From Natronobiforma cellulositropha (GTDB taxonomy: Archaea > Halobacteriota > Halobacteria > Halobacteriales > Natrialbaceae), in assembly GCF_025629245.1 (NCBI RefSeq), contig NZ_JANZXN010000006.1:124001-188000 (forward strand): DNA of 64,000 nt, in the 5' to 3' direction. Within the stretch, counting starts at the first letter, position 1. Each line of letters opens with the position of its first letter. Below are positions 7,739-57,602 of the stretch, piece by piece. The notes beneath the pieces are model-generated. The model made no database searches, was not told where the DNA came from, and worked only from the letters and a program-made list of their open reading frames with translations. Both the position numbers and the translations under genes were made by a program.

Positions 7739-7799
7739 GTCCGCACGCGCCACCGGCCACCCTCGAGCGGCTACCACCACCGCAACCGCAACCACCGCC

Positions 7800-8417: not shown

Positions 8418-8418
8418 C

Positions 8419-8703: not shown

Positions 8704-8883
8704 GTGAGAGGCGGGCGTCAGGTGGTGGGTGTACAGGAGGCGACCCGAGAGGAGACCGGACGCGGGCGGGCCAGAGTGACTACTCACAGCCAGTCGAAAG
8801 CGAGGCTACGCTACGGGAACGTACGGTGTGTGCGCAGAAATGATACCGGTTCACGGTCGCCGAGGCGACGATGAAGTCGGAAC

Positions 8884-9078
8884 TTAGTTGCGGACGACGT
8901 TCGTCGCGCGGGGACCCTTGGGGGCCTGTTCGATGTCGAATTCGATCTCGGTGCCTTCTTCGAGGTCCGGGCCGCCGATGTCTTCCATGTGGAAGAAAAC
9001 GTCATCGTCTGCGTCGTCCGTCGAAATGAAACCGTAGCCGCCTGTGTCGTTGAAGAAATCAACCTTTCCGTTTGCCAT
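8884..9078 (-). CDS. cspA: Cold-shock domain protein CspA
   Basis: The 64-residue protein is a complete cold-shock domain with the RNA-binding motif GGYGFIST (RNP1-like) and VFFHMEDI (RNP2-like), and C-terminal GPRATNV. It is a nucleic-acid chaperone acting on mRNA in the cytosol. A near copy lies at 58484-58678, differing at five positions. It is monocistronic. Upstream sequence on the minus strand reads TCCGTATACTCG with a TATA-like centre about 25 bases before the ATG. Confidence 0.95.
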   Translation of the reverse strand: MANGKVDFFNDTGGYGFISTDDADDDVFFHMEDIGGPDLEEGTEIEFDIEQAPKGPRATNVVRN

Positions 9079-9342
9079 TGCAGTAGTTCAGAGTTCGAGT
9101 ATACGGATAAGGATTGTGAATTCGTCTTTAAATTCTGCGAATAAGTCACACAATGTTCAAACCGACCCAAATGTCGTGTCCATTCGTCTATTGCAGAGAC
9201 TGGCCGAGCGTATTGTGTCCGATGTGGGACAATAGAGGAGAGATTTCGAGAGATACACAAGTAGTACGATCGGGCACTACGGTATCGTGTCACAAACTGC
9301 TGGCACCAACGGTCGGTTCGCTCAGTCGTCGCTCGAGTCCCC

Positions 9343-10563
9343 TCACTCGAGTCGGAAGAGACCGAGCGGGCGGTCCCCACCGTCGACGGTGGTCTCGTCG
9401 TCGGCGGACGCGACGACCAGCCGCCCGGGGTCGCCGTCCCGACGGGCGAGCGCGGACGCCTCGCGAATCGCGACACGCGAGCCGACGCGCTGGTCCGTCC
9501 GCGTCCCGAAGAAGCGTGCGTCCGCGTCGGCGAGGTGGGCGATTTCGGTCTCGTGCCGTCCGTAAAAGAGGTAGGCCGCACCGGCGTTGGGTCCGCCGAG
9601 GTCGCTGCTCGGAACCCCGACCAGGACGTCCGCCTCGCCGTCGCCGGTGAGGTCGCCTCGAGCGACGACCCAGCCGGGACGCTCCTCGAGCGGGACCGTC
9701 TCCGCGCGGGCTGGCAGCGGGTAGGTGTGGTGGGAGTCGAACGGAGCGGTGGCGGACGGAGCGCCTCGGGTCTCCGCAGCGCTGGCGAAACGGGTCGTGC
9801 CCGGCGAGGGGGCGACCTCGCGAAAGGCCGTACCGTCGGGACCGGTGATGATCGCCCGCCGGCCGGTGACCGTCTCCTCGCCGGTTCGGGCGTCGAGCCA
9901 GGTCGACCCGGCCGGTTCGACGAGCAGGTGGCCGACCGCGTCGGCGCGGCGGTCCACGCCGGCCGTGTCGGAGAGGCGACGAGGGCCGGGCGGGCCGTCG
10001 ACGGCCCACCGGTAGGTGGCCGACGCACCGGGTTCGACCGTCTCAGCCGTGTCGAAGCCCCCGGGACCGTCGGGAGAGTCGGCTGATGGGGAGCCGGTGG
10101 AGTCAGCAGGTGGGGAGCCGAGACCATCGGCGTCGACGCGTACTCCTTCCGGGTGGAGCGAGACGCGGTTCGGAAGGTCGTTTCGCAGAGTGAGTTCGAC
10201 GCAGTCGCCGACGTTCGCGCGCAACACGAGCGGACCGTCGGGACGGTCACCGCGTCGAATCGCCCCGACGTGGTCGGCGAGCGCGTAGCCGACCGGCGGG
10301 TCGGCGTCGCCCGAATTTGCGCCCTCGAGCCGTCGCTGGAAGGCGACGACCTCGTAGACGAGCGTGCGTGGGGCGTCCGGAGACGGGTCCTCCGAGTCGG
10401 GCGCGGACTCCTCGAGCGGGCGTCCAGCGCTCGGCGTCGTCGCCAGAAGAGCGCTCGAGGAAGCGACGCCGGCGGTCAGTCCAGCGAGGAGGCGGCGACG
10501 GGTCGGTTCGAGCGCGCTCGAGCGGGTGTGGTCCGGTGGGTCGGGTGGCTTTGGCGGTGACAT
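9343..10563 (-). CDS. Tat-exported cupredoxin-like (multicopper-oxidase N-terminal) protein with FG-GAP repeat region
   Basis: The 406-residue protein has a twin-arginine signal, TRRRLLAGLTAGVASSSALL, near residues 21-40. Residues about 65-240 resemble a multicopper oxidase N-terminal cupredoxin: VGDCVELTLRNDLPNRVSLHPEGV, then VEPGASATYRW, then HLLVEPAGSTWLDARTGE. The His pairs that bind copper in true oxidases (HxH) are absent; where family members have a His-x-His, this protein has LSDTAGVDRR, so it probably binds no copper. The C-terminal part carries an FG-GAP/integrin-like repeat, GDLTGDGEADVLVGVPSSDLGGPNAGAAYLFYG, which forms beta-propeller blades. It is probably a surface protein of unknown role. 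Monocistronic. Confidence 0.72.
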   Translation of the reverse strand: MSPPKPPDPPDHTRSSALEPTRRRLLAGLTAGVASSSALLATTPSAGRPLEESAPDSEDPSPDAPRTLVYEVVAFQRRLEGANSGDADPPVGYALADHVGAIRRGDRPDGPLVLRANVGDCVELTLRNDLPNRVSLHPEGVRVDADGLGSPPADSTGSPSADSPDGPGGFDTAETVEPGASATYRWAVDGPPGPRRLSDTAGVDRRADAVGHLLVEPAGSTWLDARTGEETVTGRRAIITGPDGTAFREVAPSPGTTRFASAAETRGAPSATAPFDSHHTYPLPARAETVPLEERPGWVVARGDLTGDGEADVLVGVPSSDLGGPNAGAAYLFYGRHETEIAHLADADARFFGTRTDQRVGSRVAIREASALARRDGDPGRLVVASADDETTVDGGDRPLGLFRLE

Positions 10564-44149: not shown

Positions 44150-45274
44150 ATGAAGATTGCGTTCGTCTCCAACGTCGTCTACCCGTTCGTAACTGGTGGT
44201 GCAGAGAAACGAATCTACGAGATTGGGACACGACTCGCAGCAAGCGGTCACGACGTGACGATCTACGGGCGTCACTTCTGGGACGGTCCCCAAGAGATGG
44301 ATTACGAGGGACTAACGCTTCGTGCAGGTGCACCAGAACGAGACCTCTACACGGAGGACCGGCGCTCGATTACCGAGGCACTCGACTTCTCGGCTCGGAT
44401 GCTTCCAACGCTACGAAAGCACATCGACGAACACGACATCGTCGTCGCCTCCGTTTTCCCGTACTTTCCCGTGATCGCCTCGAAGTTTGCCACACTGAGG
44501 AGAGACGTCCCACTGGTTACGACCTGGCACGAAGTGTGGCTCGATTACTGGGACGAGTACCTCGGTACCCTCGCACCGTTCGGAAAGGTCACCGAGCGAG
44601 TCACCGCACGGGTCCCCCATCATCCGGTCGCCGTCTCGAGCGTGACTGCCGACCGGCTCACACAGATCTGGCCGACGTCAGAGCCGATCGACGTCGTACC
44701 GAACGGGATCGATGTCGAAGGAATCAGAGCCACACCAGCCGCAGAAGACGGCTTCGACGTACTGTTTGCTGGGCGCTTGATCGCGGATAAGAACGTCGAC
44801 ATTCTGCTCGAGGCGTTCGATCGAGTGGCGAGCGAGCACGATGTAACACTCGGTATCGTAGGTGATGGGCCGGAACGCCAGCGACTAGAAGAGCAGGCCA
44901 GCCGTCTCGAGAACACCGACCAGATCACGTTCTGTGGCTTTCTCGAGGAATACGACGACGTGATCGGACAGATGCACGCTGCATCGGTCTTCGCCTCACC
45001 CTCGACCCGAGAAGGGTTCGGTATCGCCTACGCAGAGGCGATGGCAGCGGACTGCACGGTGATCGCAGCAGAGCATCCGGAGTCTGCAGCGGGAGAAGTG
45101 ATCGGGGACGGGGGATTCGTCGCGAAACCGACGGTCGAACAGGTGGCACAGACGCTCGTTCGAGCGATTAGCGGTGAACGGCCACCCGTGGAGCCGGTCG
45201 ACCGGGCAGCCCAGTACGACTGGGACCGTGTAGCAGCGCACGCACTGGAAACGTATCGAGCGTCACTGGCGTGA
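44150..45274 (+). CDS. Family 4 glycosyltransferase
   Basis: The 374-residue GT-B enzyme starts MKIAFVSNVVYPFVTGGAEKRIYEIGTRL. It contains VPNGIDVEGI, LFAGRLIADKNVDILLEAF and the E-x7-E motif EGFGIAYAEAM. These define a retaining GT4 that uses a nucleotide sugar donor. The TATA-like TTTTATACACG lies about 28 bases before the ATG, so it is probably leaderless. It ends the glycan cluster; the lasso peptide cluster begins 160 bases downstream. Confidence 0.93.
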   Translation: MKIAFVSNVVYPFVTGGAEKRIYEIGTRLAASGHDVTIYGRHFWDGPQEMDYEGLTLRAGAPERDLYTEDRRSITEALDFSARMLPTLRKHIDEHDIVVASVFPYFPVIASKFATLRRDVPLVTTWHEVWLDYWDEYLGTLAPFGKVTERVTARVPHHPVAVSSVTADRLTQIWPTSEPIDVVPNGIDVEGIRATPAAEDGFDVLFAGRLIADKNVDILLEAFDRVASEHDVTLGIVGDGPERQRLEEQASRLENTDQITFCGFLEEYDDVIGQMHAASVFASPSTREGFGIAYAEAMAADCTVIAAEHPESAAGEVIGDGGFVAKPTVEQVAQTLVRAISGERPPVEPVDRAAQYDWDRVAAHALETYRASLA

Positions 45275-45430
45275 GTTAACACCCGCGAGACGCCGAACTC
45301 GATTAACAACGGATCCGAAAAGACCACAGCAGCCGCTCTTCAGGGCATCATCGGCCACGACTATTCGCGGATGGAGATTTTTCCCATGGAGTTAGATTTA
45401 TGTTCGCACGAATATATATTTCTGCTATTG

Positions 45431-46636
45431 ATGGGGAAAACTTTCCGTCCAGAACAGCGACTCGTCGTGTCGTGTAGCCGGACGGACGAGGGGGACGAAA
45501 CGGAGCGCGTGGCGCTCCTCGAGGGGGATCTCGACTGGGAGCGCGTTACGGAACTCACACGTGTACACGGCGTGAGCGCGCTCGTCTACGGGAAGGTGAA
45601 CGAACACGAAGCGCGGGTGCCGGACGACGTACTCGAGCGCTTGCGAACGCAGGCGCGCCACGTCGCCCAGCGAAACCTGCGGATGCTGGGCGAGGTCGCA
45701 ACGCTCTCAGCTGCGTTCGCGGAGGCGGGCATCCGGGCGATTCCGTACCGAGGACCGGTCGTCGCCCAGCTCGCCTACGACAACGTCGGCCTGCGGACGT
45801 TCGGCGACCTCGACTTTCTGGTGCCCCACGAGGAGTTACCGGCGGCGAGGGCGTGTCTGCTCGAGCGTGGCTACGAGCCGCGGTACATCCTGCCGTCGAC
45901 GATGGAGCTCACGCCGACACAGGAGTGGGCGTACATCCGGTTCGCGCGCGACTATCCGTTCACACACGGGAGCGAGCCGTTCGAGGTCGAACTCCACTGG
46001 CGGGTGATCTCCCAGCACTTTCCGACGGCGATCGACCTCGAGATGGTGTGGGACCGGCGAGAGACGCTCACCGTTGCAGGGACCGAGGTGCCGGTACTCT
46101 CGGCCGAAGACCGGCTGTTGATGCTGTGCGTCCACGGGACGCGCCACGAGTGGGAGCGCCTGCAGTGGATCTGTGACGTCACCGAGTTCCTCGCGCGCTA
46201 CGAGGTCGACTGGGACGCGCTCGAGCGGCGCGCGGGCGAGCACCACTGTCGCCGGATGGTCTATCTCGGCCTGGCCGTCTCGAGAGAACTCCACGGAACG
46301 ACACTCCCGGCTGCGGTCGAGGAAGCGATCGACGCCGATCCGGTCATCGCAGACCTCACCGAACACGTCTGTCGAAACCTGTTCGATCACACCGGCGGGT
46401 GGAGTACGGACCTGCGTCGCTACCAGTCGCGGACGCTCGAGCGCAAGCGGGATAAGGCGAAACTCTGGCTCAGCTGGGCGTGTAAGCCCGACCGCGGAGA
46501 CATCGAGACGGTGGCGTTTCCGAAGCCGCTCGTGCCGTTGTACGTCGTGGTCAGATGGCTGCGCTTCGCGAGCGCGGCGGTTCGCCGCGTCCGACGCGAC
46601 CGGCGTTCGACCGACGAGCGGGTGGAGGTGACGTGA
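45431..46636 (+). CDS. PF14907-type nucleotidyltransferase of lasso cluster
   Basis: The 401-residue protein resembles nucleotidyltransferase family 5 (PF14907): PEQRLVVSCSRT start, GDLDWERVTELTRVHGVSALVYGKV, then R-x-FGDLDFLVPHEEL with the acidic pair near residues 124-131, and LHWRVISQHFP. Family members occur in bacterial lasso peptide clusters beside kinase and exporter genes (paeninodin type); their reaction on the peptide is unknown. ATG 45431 is chosen because upstream codons are AT-rich promoter-like sequence; ATG 45386 is possible. It overlaps the exporter gene (GTGATG), so the two are one operon. Confidence 0.85.
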   Translation: MGKTFRPEQRLVVSCSRTDEGDETERVALLEGDLDWERVTELTRVHGVSALVYGKVNEHEARVPDDVLERLRTQARHVAQRNLRMLGEVATLSAAFAEAGIRAIPYRGPVVAQLAYDNVGLRTFGDLDFLVPHEELPAARACLLERGYEPRYILPSTMELTPTQEWAYIRFARDYPFTHGSEPFEVELHWRVISQHFPTAIDLEMVWDRRETLTVAGTEVPVLSAEDRLLMLCVHGTRHEWERLQWICDVTEFLARYEVDWDALERRAGEHHCRRMVYLGLAVSRELHGTTLPAAVEEAIDADPVIADLTEHVCRNLFDHTGGWSTDLRRYQSRTLERKRDKAKLWLSWACKPDRGDIETVAFPKPLVPLYVVVRWLRFASAAVRRVRRDRRSTDERVEVT

Positions 46637-48459
46637 TGAGCGGCGACGGGGCGGCGTCTACGGGCGAACCCACCCTGAACGAGAAGTTTCACGCGCTCGT
46701 GCGCGTCGCGAAGTACCGGCCGAAGCAGGCCGCGCTGATCCTCGCGTTGAGCATGGTGGCGGCGCTGTTCGAGGGCATCGGCGTCAGCTTCATCGTCCCG
46801 ATCATCGAGATCGCCCAGGCCGACGGTGAGGTCGCCGAGGAAGCGACGGGCGTGGTGGCGTACTTCGTCTCCCTCTATCAGTTCGTCGGCGTCGAGCTGA
46901 CCCTCGAGACGCTGGTCGGCGGTCTCGCGCTGGTGATGGTGATCAGGTATCTGACGAACTTCCTCGTGGCGTGGCTGCAGGCGTCGCTGAGTACGAACTA
47001 CCTCGGCGAGCTTCGCCAGCAGGCCTACGACCGGCTGCTGGCGGCCGAGATCGCCTACGTCGACGCGGAGGATACGGACCAGGTGACGAACACGGTGATC
47101 ACCGAGACGGTCCAGTCGGCCCACGTGATCACACAGCTGTTGAAGCTGCTCGAGGTCGTCTTCTTCGCGGCCATCTACATCACGGTCGCACTCCTGCTCT
47201 CGCCGACGCTGACGGTGGCGACGGTCGTCGTCCTCGGCGTGATCGCCGTCCTGAGCCGCGTCGCGCTGCGGGCGGGCTACGAGATCGGTGAGGAGGTCGC
47301 GCAGGCGAACGAGCGGATTCAGGGGCTGGTCAACGCCGGGACGCGCGGGATCAGGGAGGTGAAGCTGTTCAACATGACCGACGACGTCAGCGGCGAGTAC
47401 CGGCGGACGATCGACCGCTTCGTCCGCACGCGCATCGGCCTCCAGCGCAACCAGGCGGCGCTGAAGAACGTCAACCAGCTGCTCAACGCGCTGGTCGTCT
47501 TCGCGCTGATCTACGTCGCGCTCGCGCACCTCTCGCTCTCGTTCGCCTACCTCGGGGGCTTTCTCTTCGCGATGTTTCGTCTGGCCCCGCTGGTCAGTAC
47601 GCTCAACAACCTGCTGTACGGCATCGACGGCGCGCTCCCCCACCTCGTGCGGACCCAGCACCTCATCGACGAGATGGAGCGCCACGAGGAGTCGAGCGGC
47701 GAGCGGGCGGCACCGAACCCGATCACCGAACTTGCCGTCGACGACGCCAGCTTCCACTACGCCAGCGGCAACGGCGTCAGAAACGTCTCACTGCGCGTCG
47801 AGCGCGGCGAGACGGTCGCGCTGGTCGGCCCGTCGGGGGCCGGAAAGTCGACGATCATCTCGTTGCTGACTCGGCTCTACGATCCCGACGAGGGATCGGT
47901 GCGCGCAAACGGCGTCTCGCTCTCGGAACTCGGTCTCGAGTCCTGGCACGACCGGGTGGCGATCGTCCGCCAGCACCCGTTCCTGTTCAACGAGACCCTG
48001 CGCTACAACGTGACGATCGGCAACCGGGAGGCGAGCGAGACGGACATCCGCCGCGCCTGTGAGGTGAGCCAGGTGTCGGCGTTTCTCGAGGAGTTGCCCG
48101 ACGGTCTCGAGACACGCGTCGGCGACGACGGGGTGCGCCTCTCGGGGGGCCAGCGCCAGCGCGTCGCCATCGCGCGGGCGCTGTTGACCGACGCGGACGT
48201 GCTGATTCTCGACGAGGCGACGAGCGAACTCGACTCGCCGACCGAGGAGGCGATCGTCCGCGGCATCGAGGGACTCGAGCGCGAGTACGCGACGGTCGTC
48301 ATCGGCCACTGGCTCTCGACGGTCCAGGGGGCCGATCGGCTCTACGTGGTCGCCGAAGGCGCGGTCGTCGAGTCGGGCAGCCACGAGGAGTTGCTCGCCG
48401 CCGGCGGCGAGTACGCCAGGCTGTACGACGCCCAGATGGAGTCGGTGACGGTGCCGTGA
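46636..48459 (+). CDS. ABC exporter (fused permease and ATPase) of lasso cluster
   Basis: The 607-residue half-transporter has about six transmembrane helices over residues 30-320 (ALILALSMVAALFEGIGVSFI, FVVRYLTNFLVAWLQ region). The nucleotide-binding domain carries Walker A GPSGAGKST (residues about 398-406), signature LSGGQRQR (about 502) and Walker B VLILDEATSELD (about 522); the switch His is in VVIGHWLST. It matches lasso peptide exporters (D genes), which secrete the peptide and give immunity. It overlaps the upstream nucleotidyltransferase stop. Confidence 0.92.
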   Translation: MSGDGAASTGEPTLNEKFHALVRVAKYRPKQAALILALSMVAALFEGIGVSFIVPIIEIAQADGEVAEEATGVVAYFVSLYQFVGVELTLETLVGGLALVMVIRYLTNFLVAWLQASLSTNYLGELRQQAYDRLLAAEIAYVDAEDTDQVTNTVITETVQSAHVITQLLKLLEVVFFAAIYITVALLLSPTLTVATVVVLGVIAVLSRVALRAGYEIGEEVAQANERIQGLVNAGTRGIREVKLFNMTDDVSGEYRRTIDRFVRTRIGLQRNQAALKNVNQLLNALVVFALIYVALAHLSLSFAYLGGFLFAMFRLAPLVSTLNNLLYGIDGALPHLVRTQHLIDEMERHEESSGERAAPNPITELAVDDASFHYASGNGVRNVSLRVERGETVALVGPSGAGKSTIISLLTRLYDPDEGSVRANGVSLSELGLESWHDRVAIVRQHPFLFNETLRYNVTIGNREASETDIRRACEVSQVSAFLEELPDGLETRVGDDGVRLSGGQRQRVAIARALLTDADVLILDEATSELDSPTEEAIVRGIEGLEREYATVVIGHWLSTVQGADRLYVVAEGAVVESGSHEELLAAGGEYARLYDAQMESVTVP

Positions 48460-48589
48460 CCGCGAGGGTGTGCGCCGTCGCACCGGCGACTCGAGGGGAG
48501 CCACCTCGAGTGCGGCGACGGGTGGCCGGAGCAGAAACAGACAAGTGTTCTGACGGGAATAGTGTGAAACAACCGCAGCGCGGGGGGCT

Positions 48590-49516
48590 ATGAACTACTA
48601 CGAAGCATACGGGATGACACTCGAGTCGGCGTTCGAGATGCCGGAGTTGCCGAGGGCCGAGCGGGTGGAGACGCCGGACGTCGAGATTCGTCGCGGCGAG
48701 GTCGAACCGGTCTCGGAGTGGGTCGAGGGGGAAGGCGGCCGCCGGATCCAGGCCGACGGCGACGTCTGTCGGCTCAGCTACGAGACCATCGGCTCGTTTC
48801 GCGTCGCGAAGGGGCGCGAAGTGGTGTTCGACCCGGTCTCCGAGGAGATTCCGACGATGAAGCTGTTCCGTCGGCTCATCCAGAACGAGATGATGGGCGT
48901 CCTGGCCCACCAGCGCGGCCTGCTCGTACTCCACGCGAGCGCCGTCGCCGTCGACGGCCGGGCGGCGGTGTTTCTGGGACCACGCCGGGCCGGAAAGTCG
49001 ACGACAGCGGCGGCCTTCCACACCCACGGCCACACCCTCATCGAGGACGACGTGGTGGGGATTCGCTTCGACGAGGACGGTCCCGTCGTCGTCCCGGGCG
49101 TCCCCCAGTTACGGCTGCTCCCCGACGCGGCCGACGCACTCGCGGTCGCGAGCGCGCCAGCGCCGACGACCGACGACGGCTCCGGAAAGCGCTACGAGCG
49201 CGTCGACCCCGTCCCCGAGCCGGTTCCCCTCGCGGGCTGTTACGTGCTCGAGGAGGGTGAGACGCTGGAACTCGCGCCGGTTCCCGCGCGCGAGCAACTG
49301 TTCGGGCTGATCGCGAAGACGTACGTCGCCGGACTGCTCGACGAGACGGGGACGACGGCGGCGAACTTCGAGCAGTGTTCGACGGTCGTCGAGACGACGC
49401 CGGTACAGCGACTCTGCCGCCCCAAGCGCCACGAAGTGTTACCGGCGCTGGTCGACCTGGTCGCTACGGATCTGGAGGCGGCGGCGTCCGACGGAATCGG
49501 GCACCGGCCAGCGTGA
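48590..49516 (+). CDS. HPr-kinase-like protein (K1) of lasso cluster
   Basis: The 308-residue protein has the C-terminal HPr kinase/phosphorylase fold: LVLHASAVAVDGRAAVFLG leads into Walker A GPRRAGKSTT (about residues 130-139). LIEDDVVGIRFDEDGPVVVPGVPQLRL supplies the acidic metal ligands. The N-terminal 100 residues carry YEAYGMTLESAFEMPEL typical of such kinases in lasso clusters. PadeK-type homologues phosphorylate a Ser in the lasso tail or precursor. A second copy lies at 52558-53478. The start ATG is supported by MNYYEAYGMTLESAF and a GTGTTCTGACGGGAATAGTGT stretch upstream without TATA. Confidence 0.88.
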   Translation: MNYYEAYGMTLESAFEMPELPRAERVETPDVEIRRGEVEPVSEWVEGEGGRRIQADGDVCRLSYETIGSFRVAKGREVVFDPVSEEIPTMKLFRRLIQNEMMGVLAHQRGLLVLHASAVAVDGRAAVFLGPRRAGKSTTAAAFHTHGHTLIEDDVVGIRFDEDGPVVVPGVPQLRLLPDAADALAVASAPAPTTDDGSGKRYERVDPVPEPVPLAGCYVLEEGETLELAPVPAREQLFGLIAKTYVAGLLDETGTTAANFEQCSTVVETTPVQRLCRPKRHEVLPALVDLVATDLEAAASDGIGHRPA

Positions 49517-49644
49517 GGACGGCGCCACAGGTACGTGACCCAGGCACAAGATAAATGGGTGTTCGCTGTGTTCGTCAGGTGGCGACGAGCGCACGGTGGT
49601 GGAGTCGGTCGTAAAGTGGCGACGAGTCCACCAGCGGGCCCCTC

Positions 49645-49794
49645 TCAGAGGGAGACGACCGAGCCCACCAGCGGGGTGATCTCGGAGTACTCGTCGTCGC
49701 CGTTTCCGACTTTGTTCTGCTGCGTGATCGATTCGACCGAACCGTACTCGGTGACTTCGGGAGCGACGTAGCTACCGGATGGCTTGTGAGACAT
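49645..49794 (-). CDS. Lasso precursor peptide A1
   Basis: This 49-residue frame on the minus strand is too short for automatic calling. The leader has YVAPEVTEYGSVESIT (residues 9-24), matching the lasso leader pattern Y-x2-P-x-(L/V)-x3-G-x5-T. After Thr24 comes Gln25. If cleavage follows the usual Thr(-2) rule, the core begins at Gln26, with Asp33 at position 8 and Asp34 at position 9. Alternatively the core begins at Gly30 (GNGDDEYSE), with Glu38 at position 9. The tail reads ITPLVGSVVSL. A TATA element at 49819-49828 lies 29 bases before the ATG. The paralogue A2 is at 53526-53675. Confidence 0.85.
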   Translation of the reverse strand: MSHKPSGSYVAPEVTEYGSVESITQQNKVGNGDDEYSEITPLVGSVVSL

Positions 49795-50204
49795 CGGACT
49801 AACTTACAACGTATTTGGCTATAAAACTTTTCCCTTTGATTACAATTTCCAATGGATATATCCCTCAGATCCTATTTTCGACCGTATGTATTAATACACG
49901 AGACGGAGCCATCCGGCGGCAGACGCCACCGTACGGCGCTAATTCACTCGCCTCGCCCTCGAGAGTATGTGTCGGAGAGATAGTACAGACGAGGTGACTT
50001 GTTCCGGAGTGGAAGGGGCGAGCCGGTCGGTGGAACCCACAGTACTGGTTCCTGCATCGACACAGATCACCAGCGTCACGGCCGCATCCCGCTGCCTATA
50101 AAAATTGTCCCTGGATATGTTGGGAGAGGATCGCCGAACACGATCGATTCCTCGAGTACATGTGTGAAATATTAATACAGCGGGCGAAGTACACCTGCCA
50201 AGAC
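49795..50204. other. Divergent promoter region of A1 and B1
   Basis: No gene is seen in these 410 bases. It contains the A1 promoter (AGTTTTATAG, minus strand, 49819-49828) and, near the right end, AT-rich GAAATATTAAT at 50166-50175 about 34 bases before the B1 start. The middle is moderately AT-rich and free of convincing frames. Confidence 0.55.
49819..49828 (-). promoter_or_regulatory. TATA element of lasso precursor A1
   Basis: AGTTTTATAG on the minus strand is centred 29 bases before the ATG at 49794, so the precursor mRNA is leaderless. It supports A1 as an expressed independent gene. Confidence 0.6.
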
Positions 50205-50489
50205 ATGACAGACACATCCGTCAGCGAGTCGACGGTCGTCGCCGCGGGGGACCACCTGACGACGGAACTCGAGGGTGAACTCGTGATCCTCGACGCCGAC
50301 TCGGGGACCTACTACGGCCTGAACGAGGTCGGCCGCCGGATCTGGGAACTGATCGACGAACCCCGGTCGGTCGCCGACATCGAGCGACGACTGCTCGAGG
50401 AGTACGACGTCGAGCGCGAGCAGGTCGCAGCCGACGTGCGCTCGCTCGTCGACGACCTCGCCACGAGGGGACTGGTCAGCCTCGAGTGA
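50205..50489 (+). CDS. PqqD-like leader-binding protein (lasso B1, RRE)
   Basis: The 94-residue protein is a PqqD-type RiPP recognition element: VVAAGDHLTTELEGELVILDADSGTYYGLNEVGRRIWELIDEPRSVADIERRLLEEYDVE in segments. It contains the beta-strands plus three helices of the winged-helix fold. Family proteins bind the precursor leader (Y-x2-P-x-L-x3-G region) and hand it to the leader peptidase. ATG 50205 is chosen over 50160 because MCEILIQRAKYTC upstream is not RRE-like. The stop overlaps the cyclase start (GTGA), so both are cotranscribed. Confidence 0.93.
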   Translation: MTDTSVSESTVVAAGDHLTTELEGELVILDADSGTYYGLNEVGRRIWELIDEPRSVADIERRLLEEYDVEREQVAADVRSLVDDLATRGLVSLE

Positions 50490-52366
50490 GCGGGTTCGTC
50501 GCCCTCTACCGCCCGGGCGAGACGGTCGAAGAGAGCGAACTCGAGCGGCTCACGGCGACGCTCGCCCACCGGGGACCGGGGAGACCGACGCGCTGGCGTG
50601 AACGGAGCGTCGGTCTCGGCCACCAGCACCTCGAGACCACACCGGAGGCGCGTTACGAACGTCTCCCTTACGTGGACGAGCGCCTCGCGCTCACGGCCGA
50701 CGTCCGCCTCGACAACCGTGGGGCGCTCCTCGAGCGCCTCTCGCTGTCGGGCGATCCGGCACGGATTCCGGACGGGGAGGTGCTCGCGGCGGCCTACCGG
50801 CGGTGGGGGCGACGCTGTCCCGAACACCTCGTCGGCGCGTTCGCCTTCGCCATCTGGGACCGCGAGCGCGAGTGGCTCTTCTGTGCGCGCGACCAGCTGG
50901 GGATCAAGCCGTGTTACCTCCACCGCTCGCCCGGCGTGGTCGCCGCCGCCACGACGCTCCCGACGCTGCTCGAGGTGGCCGGTCTCGAGGCGACCCTCGA
51001 CGAGCGTGCGGTCGGCGACTACCTCGCGGGCCGCTTCGCCGACCGCGAGCGAACCGTCTTCGCCGAGGGAGGTCGCCTCCCGCCGGGGCACTCGCTGACG
51101 GTGACGGCCGACACCTGCGAGCGCCACCGCTACTGGTCGCTCGCGGACGTCGATCCGCTGCCGCGGCGCTCCCGGGGCTACTACGAGCGTCGCTTTCGCG
51201 ACCTGTTCGAGGCGGCCGTCACCGCGCGCGTGCGCACCGCCGGACCGGTGGGGTCGTTCCTGAGCGGCGGCATCGACTCGAGTTCGATCACCGCGCTCGC
51301 GGGCCGACTCCACGAGCGGCCGATACACGCCGTCTCGGCCGTCTTCGAGGAGGTGACCGCCTGTGACGAGCGCGCGTTCGTCGACGCCGTCCTCGAGACC
51401 GGCGCGTTCCGCCACCACACCGTCGCGGGCGACCGAGTTCCGCCGCTGTCGGCGCTCGAAGACCTGCTCGAGCACCACGGGCGTCCCTACTACCCGTCGC
51501 TGTGTATGCTCGTCCCGCGACTCTACGAGACGGCCGCCGGCGCGGGCGCGAGCGTCGTCCTCCACGGCTACGGCGGCGACCAGACGATGGGGTCCGATCC
51601 GCGCGGCTACTTTCGCGACCTCGCCCGTCGGGGCCGACTGCTCGCGCTCCGGCGGGAACTGCGCGGCTACTGTCGGCGCAACCCCTGGCTCGAGCCGCGA
51701 GCGGTCCTGTACCACGACGTCTGTCGCCCGCTGGCGCCGACGCCGGTCAGGCGGGCCTACCACGCCCGCTTCGAACCGGGCCACTACACGGACGCGACGC
51801 TCGCCCCCATCGAGCCGGCGTTCGCCCTCGAGAGCGGACTCGAGGGGCGACTGCGCCGCGACGCGCTCACGCCCGAGCCTCGCACACAGGCGGCGCTCAG
51901 ACGGCGCGCACTCTCGCGCGACGAACCGGCGTTCAACCTCGAACTCAACGACGCGATGGCGGCCGCGGTGGGCGTCGAACCCCGCTACCCCTACTTCGAC
52001 GTGCGCCTCGTCGAGTTCGCGGCGGCGCTGCCGGCCGGCACCACCGTCTCGGCGGGACGCGACCGGACGGTCGTCCGCGACGCGCTCGCCGACGTCCTCC
52101 CGCGCGCCGTCCGCGAGCGCGACGACAAGACGGAGTTCTCCCCGAACGTCCTCCGGACGACCCGCCGCTACGAACGCGAGCGAATCGAGACGACCCTGTT
52201 CGAGTCGACGCCACGCACCGATCCCTACCTCGACTTCGCGGCCCTCGAGCGCGCGTTCGCCCGCCTCGAGCGCGGGGACGCCTCGGTGAGCGACGCCCGG
52301 GGGCTCCTGATGGCGACGACGCTCGAGCGCTGGTGTGAGCGCTACGGCCCGGAAACGACCGTATAG
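50486..52366 (+). CDS. Lasso cyclase C1 (asparagine synthetase-like)
   Basis: The 626-residue protein has both halves of an asparagine synthetase B. The N-terminal Ntn domain begins MSGFVALYRPGE, with Ser where the glutaminase Cys should be, so it cannot use Gln. The ATP-binding domain carries SGGIDSSS at residues 260-267. Lasso cyclases use this domain to adenylate the side chain of Asp/Glu in the core and close the macrolactam with the N-terminus. Start is GTG 50486, overlapping the B1 stop by four bases. It is followed after 36 bases by the A3 precursor gene. Confidence 0.92.
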   Translation: MSGFVALYRPGETVEESELERLTATLAHRGPGRPTRWRERSVGLGHQHLETTPEARYERLPYVDERLALTADVRLDNRGALLERLSLSGDPARIPDGEVLAAAYRRWGRRCPEHLVGAFAFAIWDREREWLFCARDQLGIKPCYLHRSPGVVAAATTLPTLLEVAGLEATLDERAVGDYLAGRFADRERTVFAEGGRLPPGHSLTVTADTCERHRYWSLADVDPLPRRSRGYYERRFRDLFEAAVTARVRTAGPVGSFLSGGIDSSSITALAGRLHERPIHAVSAVFEEVTACDERAFVDAVLETGAFRHHTVAGDRVPPLSALEDLLEHHGRPYYPSLCMLVPRLYETAAGAGASVVLHGYGGDQTMGSDPRGYFRDLARRGRLLALRRELRGYCRRNPWLEPRAVLYHDVCRPLAPTPVRRAYHARFEPGHYTDATLAPIEPAFALESGLEGRLRRDALTPEPRTQAALRRRALSRDEPAFNLELNDAMAAAVGVEPRYPYFDVRLVEFAAALPAGTTVSAGRDRTVVRDALADVLPRAVRERDDKTEFSPNVLRTTRRYERERIETTLFESTPRTDPYLDFAALERAFARLERGDASVSDARGLLMATTLERWCERYGPETTV

Positions 52367-52374
52367 ATTTATAT
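52365..52374 (+). promoter_or_regulatory. TATA element between C1 and precursor A3
   Basis: The sequence AGATTTATAT immediately after the C1 stop is centred about 32 bases before the A3 ATG at 52402. It can provide a strong independent promoter for the precursor, as is useful for producing peptide in excess of enzyme. Confidence 0.5.
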
Positions 52375-52401
52375 CCAGAGAAGATAGTACAGGAACGAGG
52401 G

Positions 52402-52545
52402 ATGACTACGATGGGGAACTACGAGTCACCAGTACTCGAGGTACTCGGTGACGTGGAGGCGGTAACGCACGGCAATCACTTCTCGGCCGTCGACGGCAAC
52501 TCCGGGACGACCGGCAACCGTGGACGGGGCAACCGCGGGCGGTAG
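52402..52545 (+). CDS. Lasso precursor peptide A3 (canonical)
   Basis: This 47-residue frame has the leader MTTMGNYESPVLEVLGDVEA, with Y7, P10, L12 and G16, and Thr22 followed by His23. Cleavage after His23 leaves a core starting Gly24-N-H-F-S-A-V-Asp31: Gly1 and Asp8, the classical spacing for an eight-residue macrolactam with Thr at -2. The tail (residues 32-47) is Gly/Asn/Arg/Thr rich and highly basic (GNRGRGNRGR at the end), rare among lasso peptides. It lies 36 bases after C1 and 12 bases before K2. The internal ATG (residue 4) at 52411 is an alternative start. Confidence 0.9.
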   Translation: MTTMGNYESPVLEVLGDVEAVTHGNHFSAVDGNSGTTGNRGRGNRGR

Positions 52546-52557
52546 TCGCCCCCGGCT

Positions 52558-53478
52558 GTGATCGTGACCACGGACGCGAGCGACCGCTGGGTCTACGAGG
52601 TCTACGGCCGGCGCGTCGAGTCGACGGTCGAACTGCCGCGACTGGCCGGACGGCGAGCGCCGGCGACGGACACCACACCGGACCTGACGGTTCGACGCGG
52701 CCACCTCGCGAGGACGCCCGAGACGCTCGAGCGCCGACTCGAGTGCGTCTACACGGACTCGGCCGGCGAGGTCGCCGCCTACCGGGACGGGCGGACGCTG
52801 TACTGGCTCGCCCCGGGAGTCGCCACCCTCCGGGTCGAGGCGGAGCGGGTCACGGTGGATCCGGCTCCGGAGGCGACGGCCGAGGCGCTCGGGCGACTCG
52901 TCACCAGCCCCGGGCTTCGCAGCGCGCTGTCGCTCGCCGGCGCGTTCGTCGTCCACGCGAGCGCCGTCGCCACGGACGGCCGGGCGGTCGCCTTCACCGG
53001 TCCGAGCGGACGGGGGAAGTCGACGGCGGCCGCGGCGTGTCACGCCGCCGGCTACGAGGTGCTCGGCGACGACGCGGCCGTCCTCGAGAGCCACGCGGGG
53101 ACGCCCGTCGTCGTCCCGGGCGTCCCCGTCCTCGAGACCGGCTCGACCACCGTCGACGCGAGCGGGCGGACGAGACCGGACGTGCGCCCACTCGCGGCGG
53201 TGTTCGTACTCGAGGAGGGCGACCGGTGGCAGGTCACCGAACGCGAGCGCCGGTGCGCGGCCGTCGACCTGCTCGCCGCCTCGGACGCGCTGTACGCGGC
53301 CACCGACGCGGCCCGCGCCGGGGCGGCGCTCGAGACCGCCGGTGCGCTCGCGAGCGCCGTGCCGGTCTACCGGCTGGTTCGCCCGCGCTCACACGCACGG
53401 CTGGCGGCGCTCCCGGACGTCGTCGAGGCGACGCTCGAGGACGTCGCTGGATCGGCGGTGTCTCCCAGAAAGGGGTGA
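52558..53478 (+). CDS. HPr-kinase-like protein (K2) of lasso cluster
   Basis: The 306-residue paralogue of K1 has FVVHASAVATDGRAVAFTG leading into Walker A GPSGRGKST (residues 148-156), then LGDDAAVLESH with the acidic pair, and TPVVVPGVPVLETGS. It starts at GTG 52558, 12 bases after the A3 stop, so it belongs to the B1-C1-A3-K2 operon. The N-terminal domain (WVYEVYGRRVESTVELPRL) matches that of K1. By analogy with PadeK/ThcoK it may phosphorylate a lasso Ser or Thr; A3 offers Ser28, Ser34, Thr36 and Thr37. Confidence 0.88.
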   Translation: MIVTTDASDRWVYEVYGRRVESTVELPRLAGRRAPATDTTPDLTVRRGHLARTPETLERRLECVYTDSAGEVAAYRDGRTLYWLAPGVATLRVEAERVTVDPAPEATAEALGRLVTSPGLRSALSLAGAFVVHASAVATDGRAVAFTGPSGRGKSTAAAACHAAGYEVLGDDAAVLESHAGTPVVVPGVPVLETGSTTVDASGRTRPDVRPLAAVFVLEEGDRWQVTERERRCAAVDLLAASDALYAATDAARAGAALETAGALASAVPVYRLVRPRSHARLAALPDVVEATLEDVAGSAVSPRKG

Positions 53479-53525
53479 TCGGATGACCCGCCCCGCGCGG
53501 GTCGGATGGGGCGTCGGGAAGCGGT

Positions 53526-53675
53526 TCAGACGGTGGTGATCGAACCGACGAGCGAGGTCAGTTCGGTGTACTCGTCCTCACCGCTGCCGATTTTGTTCTG
53601 TTGGGTGATCGACTCGACGGATCCGTACTCGGTCACGTCCGGCGCGACGTAGGGTTTCTTTGAATCAGTAGCCAT
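53526..53675 (-). CDS. Lasso precursor peptide A2
   Basis: The 49-residue frame on the minus strand is a paralogue of A1. Residues 9-28 are nearly identical (YVAPDVTEYGSVESITQQNK). Downstream comes G30-S-G-E33-D34-E-Y-T-E38. If cleavage follows Thr24-Gln25, the core begins with Gln26 and Glu33 is at position 8; if it begins at Gly30, Glu38 is at position 9. The tail reads LTSLVGSITTV. A TATA element at 53701-53710 lies 30 bases before the ATG. It is followed upstream in transcription by C2 and B2. Confidence 0.85.
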   Translation of the reverse strand: MATDSKKPYVAPDVTEYGSVESITQQNKIGSGEDEYTELTSLVGSITTV

Positions 53676-53700
53676 CGAGTTGGCATTCAATACAGTAGTC

Positions 53701-53710
53701 TATAAGTATA
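53701..53710 (-). promoter_or_regulatory. TATA element of lasso precursor A2
   Basis: TATACTTATA on the minus strand is centred 30 bases before the ATG at 53675. It gives A2 its own promoter, independent of the upstream B2-C2 operon. Confidence 0.6.
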
Positions 53711-53718
53711 TCTCTTGG

Positions 53719-55629
53719 TTAGTGGAATGTATCCGGTGGATCGGCGGCGGGTGGCTCTCGAGCGTCGGCGACGGTCTCGTCGTACCAGGCCGACAGCGAG
53801 AGCGCACGCCAGAGCGAGCGGGCGTCACGGCTCGTCGGCTCGTCCGTGAACCGCTCGTAGGCGGCTCGAAGCTCCGCCTCGTCGAGGTAGGCGGTGAGCG
53901 GGCCGGGGTCGTCGGCGAGCGTGCGGAGTCGGTCGTCCTCCTTCGCGAGGGCGTTCCAGAAGCCTTCGTTCATCGCCGTCTTCCAGGGCCGCCACTGGAC
54001 GGTCTCGGGGAGGAGTCCGTCGAGCGAGCGTCGGATGATCGAGCGCGTCCAGCCGTCGTTGAGCTGCTGTGAGCGCGGGATCGCGAGCGAGAACTCGAGG
54101 AGGCGGACGTCGGTGAAGGGGTAGCGCTGTTCGACGCCGAAGGCGGCGTTGGCGACGTCGCTGGTCTCGAGACTGGCGCAGACGCGGCCGCCGGTGAGCG
54201 AGTCGTACTGCCAGGTGCGAGCGCGCTGGCGAAGCGCCGAGGGGGAGTCTCGCGCCTGTGCGACGCGCTCGTCGAGACCGAGGCGGGAGACGAAGGCGTC
54301 GTCGAGCGTGGGGTTCTCGGCATCGGTGAGCACCGGCTGGCCGCGGGCGCGCGTGCGCCGACGCAAGAGGGCGTCCGGGACCATCGGTTTGAGCGCGTGA
54401 CGGACGAAGAGGTGACGCGCCGGTGCGTCGAGGATGTCGGCCATCGCGGTGAGTTCGCGGTGGAGGTGGCGCCACCGGCCGGTGCGAAGGAGGTGGGGGA
54501 GCAACTCGAGACCGTAGTTGACGGCGCTGTCGCCGAGGGCCCCACAGAGGACGACGTTGACGCCCGCCTCCCGGACGTGTTTGGCCTTCTCCCAGCGCGC
54601 GAAGTGGAGCGTGTTGTGCGGCGGCTGGTCGTAGTGGTCGAACACCCGCTCGCGGTCGACCAGGACGGAGACGTCGTCCGCGAACAGATACTGCGAGACG
54701 ATTCCCTCGCGGTCGACGACGGACTCGATGAACTCGCGTTCGTCGCTCGAGGGGGCGTCGTCGAAGACGTTCGAGAAGGTGTACAGCGGCTGGTCGGCGG
54801 GGAGGAGGTCGCGGGCGACGACGGTGATCGACGAGGAGTCGAGACCGCCGCTGAGCGCCGCGCCGACGGGACCCGGCGAGCGGAACCGACAGCGGACGGC
54901 TTCCTCGAACAGCTCGCGAAAGCGTCGCTCGTAGGCCGCGTCGGAGGCGAGCGTGATCGTCCGCGTTGGATCGAGGTCCCAGTAGCGCCAGCGCTCGAGA
55001 CCGTCGGCGTCGACCGAGAGTGCGTGTGCGGGCGGGAGCCGGCGAACCGCGTCGTAGAAGGTGCGCTCGGTGTCCTCGTGGAGTCCACAGAGGAAGTCCG
55101 CGACCCGCAGGTCGTCGACCGCAGGCGACACCGATGGGTGTGCGAGCAGGGCCTTCTGCTCGGAGGCGCAGGCGAACGCCTCCTCGCTGGCGGTGTAGTA
55201 GAACGGTTTGACGCCGACGTGGTCGCGCGCACAGAAGAGCCGGTCTCGCGCCCCGTCCCAGATGGCGAACGCGAACGCGCCGAGGAGGTGTTCGGGACAG
55301 CGCTCGCCCCACTCGCGGTAGGCCGCCGCGAGCAGCTCGCTCTCGGTGAGCGGCTCCGAGGGAGAGAGCGAGAGCGACTCACGCAGTTCCCGGCGGTTGT
55401 CGAGGCGGGCGTCGGCGGTGACGACGAGGTCACCCGAGACGTGCGGCCAGCGCTCCCTGTGGGCTTCGGGCGTCGCGATCAGGTGCTGGTGGCCGAGACC
55501 GACCCGTCCCTCGAGCCAGGTGTCGCTTCCATCGGGACCGCGGTGGGCGAGGCGCGCACACAGGTCGTGGACGTCCTCGGGGGAGACGACGCCCCCACCG
55601 CGGTCGAAGACGCCGACGATGCCGCTCAC
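53719..55629 (-). CDS. Lasso cyclase C2 (asparagine synthetase-like)
   Basis: The 636-residue protein resembles C1. It begins MSGIVGVFDRGGGVV with Ser in place of the glutaminase Cys, and has SGGLDSSS at residues 260-267 in the ATP-pyrophosphatase domain. It forms the macrolactam between the core N-terminus and an Asp/Glu side chain. The ATG overlaps the B2 stop by four bases, so B2 and C2 are co-translated. The A2 precursor lies 43 bases downstream of its stop. C2 shares high similarity with C1 in the N-terminal 150 residues but diverges after the ATP site. Confidence 0.92.
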   Translation of the reverse strand: MSGIVGVFDRGGGVVSPEDVHDLCARLAHRGPDGSDTWLEGRVGLGHQHLIATPEAHRERWPHVSGDLVVTADARLDNRRELRESLSLSPSEPLTESELLAAAYREWGERCPEHLLGAFAFAIWDGARDRLFCARDHVGVKPFYYTASEEAFACASEQKALLAHPSVSPAVDDLRVADFLCGLHEDTERTFYDAVRRLPPAHALSVDADGLERWRYWDLDPTRTITLASDAAYERRFRELFEEAVRCRFRSPGPVGAALSGGLDSSSITVVARDLLPADQPLYTFSNVFDDAPSSDEREFIESVVDREGIVSQYLFADDVSVLVDRERVFDHYDQPPHNTLHFARWEKAKHVREAGVNVVLCGALGDSAVNYGLELLPHLLRTGRWRHLHRELTAMADILDAPARHLFVRHALKPMVPDALLRRRTRARGQPVLTDAENPTLDDAFVSRLGLDERVAQARDSPSALRQRARTWQYDSLTGGRVCASLETSDVANAAFGVEQRYPFTDVRLLEFSLAIPRSQQLNDGWTRSIIRRSLDGLLPETVQWRPWKTAMNEGFWNALAKEDDRLRTLADDPGPLTAYLDEAELRAAYERFTDEPTSRDARSLWRALSLSAWYDETVADAREPPAADPPDTFH

Positions 55630-56132
55630 GACTCGTCACCCTCGTTGAGCGGTGGCAGCGGCTGGTAGCGCGAGAGGTCCTCGAGGTCGCCGATGATGAT
55701 CGCGTCGCCGTACTCGATCCAGCTGTGGGCTTCGAACGTGCCGTCCCCGTTCTTGTCGACGCCGATGCGGTGGACGACGTCGCCGTCGAGGTCGTAGAGA
55801 CGGAGCAGCGTCTCCGTGCTCAGCGAGCGCATCAGACAGGTCCGGTGGCCGGGGAGCCGTGCGTCGGCGGCTTCGACGGCCCAGGCGACACGGTCGGGCG
55901 TCGGCGAGCCAGGGACGAGCCGCGAGAGGACGCCGGCGGGAGCTAAGAGCAGCCGCCTGAACGTCGCGAACGGCAGGAGAAAGACCCCGACTCGCGTGAG
56001 CAAGAGGAGCCAGACGGCACTCACCACTCTGGCTGCGTCGCCCGGCGGAAGCCGGAGGAAGGCGACGACACGCCGGCTCACGGCACCACCCCGGTCCGGT
56101 TCCGACGGTCCCGCCTCTCCACGACAGTACAT
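55626..56132 (-). CDS. Lasso leader peptidase B2 (transglutaminase fold)
   Basis: The 168-residue protein belongs to the lasso B2/McjB protease family (PF13471-like). It has a hydrophobic helix (AVWLLLLTRVGVFLLPFATF, residues 39-58) followed by the catalytic region with Cys99 in RTCLMRSLSTETLLRLYDL and His136 in FEAHSWIEYGD; an Asp after it (143 or 149) completes a Cys-His-Asp triad. It cuts the precursor after the leader. ATG 56132 is chosen because a TATA element (56156-56168) lies 30 bases upstream. Start of the B2-C2 operon. Confidence 0.9.
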   Translation of the reverse strand: MYCRGEAGPSEPDRGGAVSRRVVAFLRLPPGDAARVVSAVWLLLLTRVGVFLLPFATFRRLLLAPAGVLSRLVPGSPTPDRVAWAVEAADARLPGHRTCLMRSLSTETLLRLYDLDGDVVHRIGVDKNGDGTFEAHSWIEYGDAIIIGDLEDLSRYQPLPPLNEGDES

Positions 56133-56435
56133 GTCTTCGTCACGGCGTTCACTCACTAATATTATAGTATCTGCTGGGCTATAAACGTCACCGTCGGGCG
56201 TAGACGAGTGGTACCACCCCTCACGAGCGTGCGTATGGGACGAGGAGACGGGAAATACCCCCTTCAGGCCCATCGGACGACGCGATACGCCGCTACAACT
56301 AATTACTGTTGGCCCGTACACCGACTGTGACCTTCACGACAAATAATCATAATAATACGCATTTACTATCCTGAAATATATTATAGGAAGAACATCCAAA
56401 GCATTATAAATCTAAGAATAGAGAGGGCTGTTGGA
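56133..56435. other. Divergent promoter region between B2 and zinc-finger gene
   Basis: No credible frame lies in these 303 bases. They hold the B2 TATA element (ACTATAATATTAG on the minus strand, 56156-56168) and, near the right end, GCATTATAAATC at 56401-56412, about 29 bases before the ATG at 56436. The middle includes an AT-rich run (ATAATCATAATAATACG). Confidence 0.55.
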
Positions 56436-56603
56436 ATGATCGATGCAGTAGAGAAGCAGACCGGAAGCGAAGCCGTGCTCGCGACGCTCGAGCACTCGAG
56501 TTGTACGTTCTGTGACGACGGTGTGCTCGTCCGTGACGTCTACAAAGGAAACGACGCGGTCGTCTGTGCGAACTGCGGTGTGCCCGGCGCACAGGTGTGG
56601 TAA
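56436..56603 (+). CDS. Small zinc-finger protein (HVO_A0556-like)
   Basis: The 55-residue protein contains two C-x2-C pairs, SSCTFCDDGVLVRDVYKGND and VVCANCGVPGAQVW, forming a zinc ribbon. It resembles the HVO_A0556 family of haloarchaeal small zinc fingers, whose functions include regulation of biofilm or stress responses in some members. The start is set by GCATTATAAATC 29 bases upstream. It lies next to the lasso B2 promoter and might be a regulator, but position is the only hint. Confidence 0.8.
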   Translation: MIDAVEKQTGSEAVLATLEHSSCTFCDDGVLVRDVYKGNDAVVCANCGVPGAQVW

Positions 56604-56675
56604 GCGACTGTTTTGGAGGCGGGGGTTTCGACGACCAGTGAGCGTCCAGGTTAGGCGGGAGACGGGACTGGCCGC

Positions 56676-57602
56676 TCACTCGAGGTAGCCAGCACAGACT
56701 TCGCGGATGCCGCGTTCGAACTCGATTTCGGGTTCCCAGCCGGTCTCCTCGTGGAGTTTCGTGTTGTCCGCGCAGGTGTCGTGGACGTAGACGGAGTCGG
56801 GGATGGGGTTCTCGACGTAGGTCGGCTCGACCGCAGCGTCGAGCTCCTCGTTCAGCAGGTCGACGACCTGGTTGAACGAGTAGCGCTGTTCGGTACCGAC
56901 GTTGTAGACGCCGTCGAGACGGTGTTCGGCGGCCAGAATCAGCGCGCGAACGACGTCGTCGACGTGGGTGAAATCACGTGTCTGCGTGCCGTCGCCGTAG
57001 AGGACGGGTGACTCGCCGCGAGCGATGTCGTCGGCGAACTGGGCGATGACGTTGGCGTACTCGCCTTTGTGTTCTTCGGCACCGTCGTAGCCCTGGTAGA
57101 CGGAGAAAAAGCGCATGCCAGCCATCGTGAGTCCGTAGTGGTTCGAGAAGTACTCCGCGTAGCGCTCGCGGGCGAGTTTCGACGCCTCGTAGCCGGTGTT
57201 GACCGCGACGGGCATCTCCTCTGGCGAAGGCGTCGTCTGGCTGCCGTAGATCGAGGAGGTCGAGGCGTAGACGACCGTCTCACAGCCGTCCTGGCGGGCC
57301 TGATCGACCGTGTTGACGAACCCCTCGACGTTGACGCGGACGCCGCGTCTCGGGTCCTCTTCGTGCATCGCGTACGACGAGAGCGCCGCGAGGTGGAAGA
57401 CGACGTCGACGTCCGTCGGCAGGTCGTCCTCGAGTACGCTCGCGTCGACGAACTCGACGCGGTCGTCGAGGTTCTCCGGCGTTCCCAGATAACAGTCGTC
57501 GACGACGACCACGTCGTTGTCCGCAGCGAGCGCGTTCGCGAGGTTCGAGCCGATAAAGCCCGCGCCACCGGTGACGAGGAGGCGACAGTCGGAGAGAGTC
57601 AT
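56676..57602 (-). CDS. NAD-dependent sugar epimerase/dehydratase
   Basis: The 308-residue short-chain dehydrogenase carries VTGGAGFIGSN (NAD-binding GxxGxxG at residues 12-18), VVVDDCYLG, HLAALSSY, TSSIYGS and the catalytic Y-x3-K in YEASKLARE. These mark an extended SDR such as UDP-glucose 4-epimerase or a related UDP-sugar enzyme; the exact sugar is undetermined. It would supply donors to the glycosyltransferases. It is separated from the glycan cluster by the lasso cluster. Transcribed alone. Confidence 0.92.
   Translation of the reverse strand: MTLSDCRLLVTGGAGFIGSNLANALAADNDVVVVDDCYLGTPENLDDRVEFVDASVLEDDLPTDVDVVFHLAALSSYAMHEEDPRRGVRVNVEGFVNTVDQARQDGCETVVYASTSSIYGSQTTPSPEEMPVAVNTGYEASKLARERYAEYFSNHYGLTMAGMRFFSVYQGYDGAEEHKGEYANVIAQFADDIARGESPVLYGDGTQTRDFTHVDDVVRALILAAEHRLDGVYNVGTEQRYSFNQVVDLLNEELDAAVEPTYVENPIPDSVYVHDTCADNTKLHEETGWEPEIEFERGIREVCAGYLE

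Follow-up and report, generated by a model that had tools for sequence, protein, structure and literature searches.

Could a 47-codon reading frame in a haloarchaeon encode a lasso peptide, and would its basic tail hold a thread? We examined the frame, A3, in the window (a 64,000-nucleotide stretch of Natronobiforma cellulositropha DNA). The sequence-only reading had described A3 as a canonical lasso precursor carrying Thr22, Gly24 and Asp31. The frame and the three residues lie exactly where it placed them. The features of the gene are as follows.

52402..52545, + strand: A3, lasso precursor gene, 47 aa, MTTMGNYESPVLEVLGDVEAVTHGNHFSAVDGNSGTTGNRGRGNRGR; assigned by NF033521, synteny and pN << pS in the core
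52402..52470, + strand: leader peptide, residues 1-23, MTTMGNYESPVLEVLGDVEAVTH; pattern Y7..P10.L12...G16.....T22 read from the sequence
52471..52494, + strand: predicted 8-residue macrolactam ring GNHFSAVD, Gly24 (core 1) to Asp31 (core 8); from the three-genus alignment
52495..52524, + strand: conserved tail segment GNSGTTGNRG, core 9-18; all 10 positions unchanged across the three genera
52525..52542, + strand: variable basic C-terminal extension RGNRGR, core 19-24; NGKGKKKGWW or HRRGT in the orthologues
52368..52374, + strand: TATA-like TTTATAT, ahead of Met1 by about 28-34 nt; read by eye rather than predicted statistically

Against the NCBIfam model NF033521 (lasso_leader_L3), A3 scores 24.7 bits; the curated cut-off is 19. 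Its orthologues, described below, score 24.3 bits (Salinadaptatus) and 18.9 bits (Natronoglomus, at the cut-off of 19). A strict motif, Y..P.[LVI]...G.....T.G.{5,7}[DE], was also sought in all six frames, using a first-order Markov background. The window holds one match, compared with 0.01 expected per 64 kb. The leader Y, P, G and T are invariant across the A3 orthologues, and A1 and A2, two further precursors at the locus, have the same four. Thr22 is at position -2, Gly24 is core 1 and Asp31 is core 8. The core itself is GNHFSAVDGNSGTTGNRGRGNRGR, with Gly1 and Asp8, and no Cys occurs in any of the three A3 orthologues. Leader model, motif and conservation all bear out the description of a canonical lasso precursor. 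Judged from sequence, A3 is almost certainly a translated RiPP precursor.

Translation may begin at Met4 (52411) instead of Met1: all three homologues have a Met exactly three residues ahead of the leader Tyr. In Salinadaptatus A3 this Met is the only one. The A3 core is identical with either start. A leaderless transcript from Met1 suits the spacing of TTTATAT, which suggests that A3 has a promoter of its own. Both orthologues are also preceded by AT-rich TATA-like stretches, again seen by eye.

A3 is flanked by genes of lasso type. In order, these are a glycosyltransferase, N, the ABC exporter, K1, A1 (- strand), B1, C1, A3 and K2. After K2 come A2, C2 and B2 (all - strand), an HVO_A0556 zinc finger and an NAD-dependent epimerase.

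45371..46636, + strand: N, NTP_transf_5 nucleotidyltransferase typical of phospho-lasso clusters; PF14907 5.9e-67
46555..48459, + strand: D, ABC exporter; PF00005 5.3e-35, PF00664 2.9e-12
48590..49516, + strand: K1, second HPr-kinase-like protein, A1/A2 system; clade separate from K2
49645..49794, - strand: A1, second lasso-leader precursor type, Gln at core 1; NF033521 21.6 bits, above 19
50160..50489, + strand: B1, PqqD/RRE leader-binding protein; PF05402 5.8e-23, NF033536 68.7 bits (cut-off 80)
50486..52366, + strand: C1, asparagine-synthetase-like, predicted macrolactam synthetase of A3; PF00733 1.4e-51
52558..53478, + strand: K2, HPr-kinase-like, putative precursor kinase; 12 nt after A3, in its own clade
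53526..53690, - strand: A2, A1 paralogue; NF033521 18.1 bits (just under 19), NF033528 8.1e-06
53719..55629, - strand: C2, cyclase of the A1/A2 system; NF033535 630.9 bits, above 525
55626..56321, - strand: B2, transglutaminase-like leader peptidase; NF033537 84.5 bits (cut-off 33)

C1 retains the SGGIDS motif and has Ser in place of the glutaminase Cys2. Hence, C1 fits a macrolactam synthetase. It scores 488 bits against the lasso cyclase model NF033535, under the cut-off of 525, and this counts against a lasso reading of A3. Both C1 orthologues exceed the cut-off. The motifs of K2 are intact (H, GxxGxGKS and DD; HAS...GPSGRGKS...GDD), as in lasso-precursor kinases including BsfK, and its matches to NCBIfam HprK-related models fall under cut-off. 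In K1 the P-loop is GPRRAGKS, with Arg at the usual second Gly; BsfK tolerated a Gly-to-Ala change at the equivalent position (PMC10368454).

B1 is the only PqqD-like gene seen at the window locus, and one B1 was seen at each of the three loci with A3. B2 is single-copy in each of these genomes. Hence, if the two systems are both active, they must share B2. We infer that B1 and B2 are common to the A3 module and the A1/A2/C2/K1 system. C2 is found with A1/A2-type precursors in genomes that lack C1, and genomes with C2-type cyclases alone hold mostly such precursors, with mostly Gln, Asn or Ser at core 1. A1/A2-type precursors also occur at L045-L053, L079 and L080, again mostly with Gln, Asn or Ser at this position. 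The type has an acidic core (DDEYS/EDAVTEA) ending near GS[IV] and is widespread in haloarchaea with C2-type cyclases. Its core-1 assignment is not fixed, as the Asp/Glu spacing shifts by one in some members. The HVO_A0556-family zinc finger adjoins B2 in the window (56436-56603, + strand) and in Natronoglomus (L046, 5167-5304); it is possibly a regulator, or a mere neighbour.

Whole-genome searches found an A3 orthologue in Natronoglomus mannanivorans AArc-m2/3/4 (E 2.3e-11). A second, in Salinadaptatus halalkaliphilus XQ-INN 246, was found by searching with C1. Both hosts belong to the Natrialbaceae. The order C1-A3-K2 is kept at all three loci, each time beside the C2/A1-A2 system. Three of the 125 genomes of the family contain C1, A3 and K2 together, and the C1 and K2 clades (each with 100/100 support in trees) are found in exactly these three. 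Identity within the C1 clade is 55-57%; that to other cyclases is at most 41%. The sequence-only reading would have been undermined by loss of the frame where C1 and K2 persist. The frame is present in 3/3 genomes with C1 and K2.

The three A3 peptides align as GNHFSAVDGNSGTTGNRG-RGNRGR, GRHFSRVDGNSGTTGNRG-NGKGKKKGWW and GQHFSRVDGNSGTTGNRG-HRRGT. In the segment G-x-H-F-S-x-V-D-GNSGTTGNRG, 16/18 residues are identical, with many synonymous changes. Ring residues G1, H3, F4, S5, V7 and D8 are invariant in the three genera. For core 1-18, pN is 0.03-0.11 and pS is 0.55-0.64; the leader is less constrained (pN 0.30-0.37). The low pN relative to pS argues that the A3 frame is translated and selected, with the core as the constrained part. 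A scan of GTDB species genomes with core patterns returned just the two Natrialbaceae orthologue loci. Order-wide A3 matches (E 0.002-0.1) were set aside, being mostly pieces of long reading frames. A3 had no match in viral contigs or plasmids, and C1 had none in viral contigs. Plasmid matches to C1 were confined to Halopiger xanaduensis and Antarctobacter (33-35% identity). An Rfam scan gave no match.

The class II features found here are the leader, the ring residues, a cyclase without the glutaminase Cys, the B1/B2 pair and a core free of Cys. A3 is likely a class II lasso precursor made by a nested C1-A3-K2 module within a haloarchaeal lasso cluster. In the pathway we propose, B1 would bind the YxxPxLxxxG leader. 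Ahead of folding, K2 would phosphorylate a Ser of the core; the invariant Ser5 of the ring, or Ser11, is the most likely site. B2 would cleave after residue 23, and C1 would activate Asp8 and, with the tail already folded, link it to Gly1 around that tail. The thread would be locked by the conserved Arg17, with the later Arg/Lys residues, and the ABC protein would export the product. We infer every enzymatic step, as well as threading, the phosphosite and export. The invariant internal phosphosite candidates are Ser5, Ser11, Thr13 and Thr14. The orthologues end in Arg, Trp and Thr and none in Ser, so an internal site of the BsfK kind is likelier than a C-terminal site of the paeninodin kind.

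By analogy, the system appears to work most like BsfA/BsfK of Bradymonas sediminis. In the BsfA core, GTSGNEVDGSTPADRGNNPGD, the Gly1-Asp8 link is assigned, Ser3 is phosphorylated and the tail has no aromatics (PMC10368454). BsfK acts on Ser3 before leader removal, aided by B1 (PMC10368454). Both systems have a YxxPxL leader, split B1/B2 and a dedicated HPr-like kinase. Both cores have Gly1-Asp8, V7-D8-G9, no C-terminal Ser and a polar, aromatic-free tail with RGN. However, BsfA is bacterial, has Ile at -2 and an acidic core, and carries Ser3 instead of Ser5. Mature BsfA, the nearest analogue, was not detected (PMC10368454), which counts against the lasso reading. Clusters of the paeninodin/pseudomycoidin type share K and an NTP_transf_5-type N beside B1, B2, C and an ABC exporter. 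Paeninodin-type (PadeA) kinases modify a C-terminal Ser, whereas the A3 orthologues end otherwise; from its sequence, A3 falls outside the C-terminal-Ser phospho-lasso type.

The tail of A3, GNSGTTGNRGRGNRGR, is as the sequence-only reading claimed: 16 residues rich in Gly, Asn and Arg (six, three and four), with zero aromatics. Gly and Asn make up 0.56 of its residues. Of the GNRGRGNRGR end, GNRG alone is conserved. Homologues sharing the RGNRGR tail were proposed for a search, and none was found in the genomes searched; the orthologues end NGKGKKKGWW and HRRGT. The extension differs in length and sequence across the three orthologues, yet it is basic in all, and the net tail charges are +4, +5 and +3. 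Because the basic extension varies, it may be trimmed. The extension after GNSGTTGNRG would then be a follower or export signal and the mature peptide would have about 18 residues, which is compatible with a lasso. The three extensions differ from one another and follow 10 identical residues, and lariocidin, in which LrcF removes Gly18, sets a precedent. Conversely, basic character is kept in all three extensions and no dedicated protease is present among the cluster genes annotated. We regard trimming as a serious possibility, short of the expected outcome.

The composition of the tail bears on whether the product is threaded at all. C1 could close Gly1-Asp8 and leave a Gly/Asn/Thr tail without an adequate plug, giving a branched-cyclic macrolactam. 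Most lasso peptides are locked by a bulky aromatic. The A3 tail has none, a point against the lasso reading, and is rich in Gly and Asn. Steric-lock substitutions tend to abolish maturation or to give products that unthread on heating (PMC13352647). However, Arg17 is invariant and is the sole large residue conserved in the tail. Hence, it is the best plug candidate if the product is threaded, and the earlier suggestion of Arg as plug is reasonable. In a published table, the tail has no aromatic in 8 of 47 parsable lasso peptides, including caulosegnin I and lassomycin, and BsfA is similar; thus, aromatic-free tails are uncommon but not unheard of. The tail had been called very unusual for a lasso peptide. 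It is uncommon, but these precedents temper the stronger wording. Caulonodin I, caulosegnin I and lassomycin resemble A3 in being class II, with Arg and no aromatic in the tail, but their tails are shorter, less Gly/Asn-rich and unrelated in sequence. On balance, an unthreaded product is unlikely. The Gly1-Asp8 macrolactam is probable, and we lean towards a threaded form.

If A3 does give a lasso peptide, a functional reading compatible with this is a ribosome binder of the lariocidin kind, its RG-rich tail lying on rRNA. Lariocidin, SKKSKPGDGKFGRGVKRG, binds the ribosome at the 16S rRNA backbone and has a tail of net charge +4 (PMC11451635, PMC12427821). Among the 47 parsable peptides, it is the only entry with a tail as cationic as that of A3. 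In both, Asp8 closes an 8-residue ring, Gly9 follows, and the tail is RG-rich and strongly cationic. Unlike A3, lariocidin is bacterial, with Ser1, a cationic ring and Phe11 in the tail, and its cluster includes genes for a clostripain and a GNAT. The window A3 ring (NHFSAV) has no Lys or Arg, and the RG part is not conserved among the orthologues. Pure charge attraction is weakened by molar salt, and such screening also argues against rRNA binding. Lariocidin likewise offers a precedent for the nucleic-acid or membrane binding that the sequence-only reading raised, with the same reservation about salt. Members of the lrc family have the ring-closing Asp flanked by Gly on either side, a trait absent from A3 (Val7-Asp8-Gly9). 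Neither a GNAT (LrcE) nor a clostripain (LrcF) is among the annotated cluster genes, 14 neighbouring genes having been scanned (44150-57602). With no Gly7 and neither gene among those 14, A3 is outside the lrc family. Ribosome binding by A3 is doubtful on this evidence, and an RNA target in general, suggested by analogy, is equally so. The product is likely secreted as an antagonist or a signal, with its polar and basic tail contacting RNA or some acidic target in the manner of lariocidin; this is the weakest step of our proposal.

A3 might instead be phosphorylated and cleaved without gaining a ring, like haloarchaeal leader peptides of cyclase-free clusters. One such cluster, from a genome close by in the tree (G410, locus L119, about 7745-9150), has B1, B2, a kinase, a nucleotidyltransferase, an ABC exporter and three Gly/Arg-rich lasso-leader peptides. 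Their cores are TKRGKGKGRGPPDELPIGYGRGPP, TKRG followed by poly-Gly to PIGYGQ, and TKQGKCNGKGSPSELSVGY. No lasso cyclase lies within 17 kb, and none was found genome-wide by NF033535 (E<=1e-20). However, a conserved cyclase specific to A3 lies immediately upstream of it in 3/3 genomes, and Gly1 and Asp8 are invariant. A ring-free fate for A3 is very unlikely. A chance frame without function, which its shortness (under the usual gene-caller length) might suggest, is ruled out by synteny and purifying selection and retains a negligible probability.

In the literature searched, mostly outside subscription journals, no lasso peptide isolated from an archaeon is described, which is not proof of absence. 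A 2026 review treats lasso peptides as bacterial products; a 2025 review lists archaea among the producers in passing, and antiSMASH-type predictions exist. The A3 family is a clean candidate: its core is canonical, it spans three genera, and a cyclase and a kinase appear dedicated to it. Through it one could learn whether lasso biosynthesis works in molar salt, whether Arg by itself can lock a thread, and in what way two cyclases and two precursor types are served by a single B1/B2 pair. It is improbable that the full picture holds, namely a first archaeal lasso peptide of distinct architecture, with an 8-residue ring, a thread locked by Arg alone and a cationic Gly-rich tail, produced by a cyclase-kinase pair of its own and serving as an archaeocin that targets the ribosome or other RNA at molar salt.

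Other haloarchaeal peptides carry related leaders. Together with A3, their RG, poly-Gly and Trp/Asp cores, sometimes in clusters without a cyclase, suggest reuse of the lasso leader machinery among haloarchaea. In most loci of one genus (g43; L060-L068, L121 and L123), MKEYETPSVETYGTVEEKTNWWDHDDGYGKWS lies beside B1, B2, a kinase, a nucleotidyltransferase and an exporter. It has a lasso-like leader (15.4 bits, under the cut-off) and a very short Trp/Asp core; no cyclase was near it in the two loci examined. At L122 (G199, 9284-10333, + strand), a peptide with an A3-like leader and Trp/Asp/Gly repeats (WDWGWGDDD) adjoins a K2-like kinase (35%). No B1, B2 or C is nearby, and the only B2 and lasso cluster of that genome are about 30 kb off. 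At L081 (G137, 8865-9020, + strand), a lasso-leader precursor (24.1 bits) lies beside C, K, B1 and B2. Its core, GSKGKGRGRGRGRGRGASRGDGLGGGR, could form no normal ring because positions 7-9 hold no Asp or Glu. At L054 (G408, precursor at 6216, - strand), ...ITQKRGRGQDLFQNQAQASGRPPGQSRWGRK is an unrelated basic precursor, the second Arg-rich peptide with a lasso leader in this family. Finally, the precursor at L084 (G003, 6214, - strand) has a canonical core, GTGGGDFDAFATGSP, with Thr at -2, Gly1, Asp8 and Phe10, and a divergent cyclase adjoins it.
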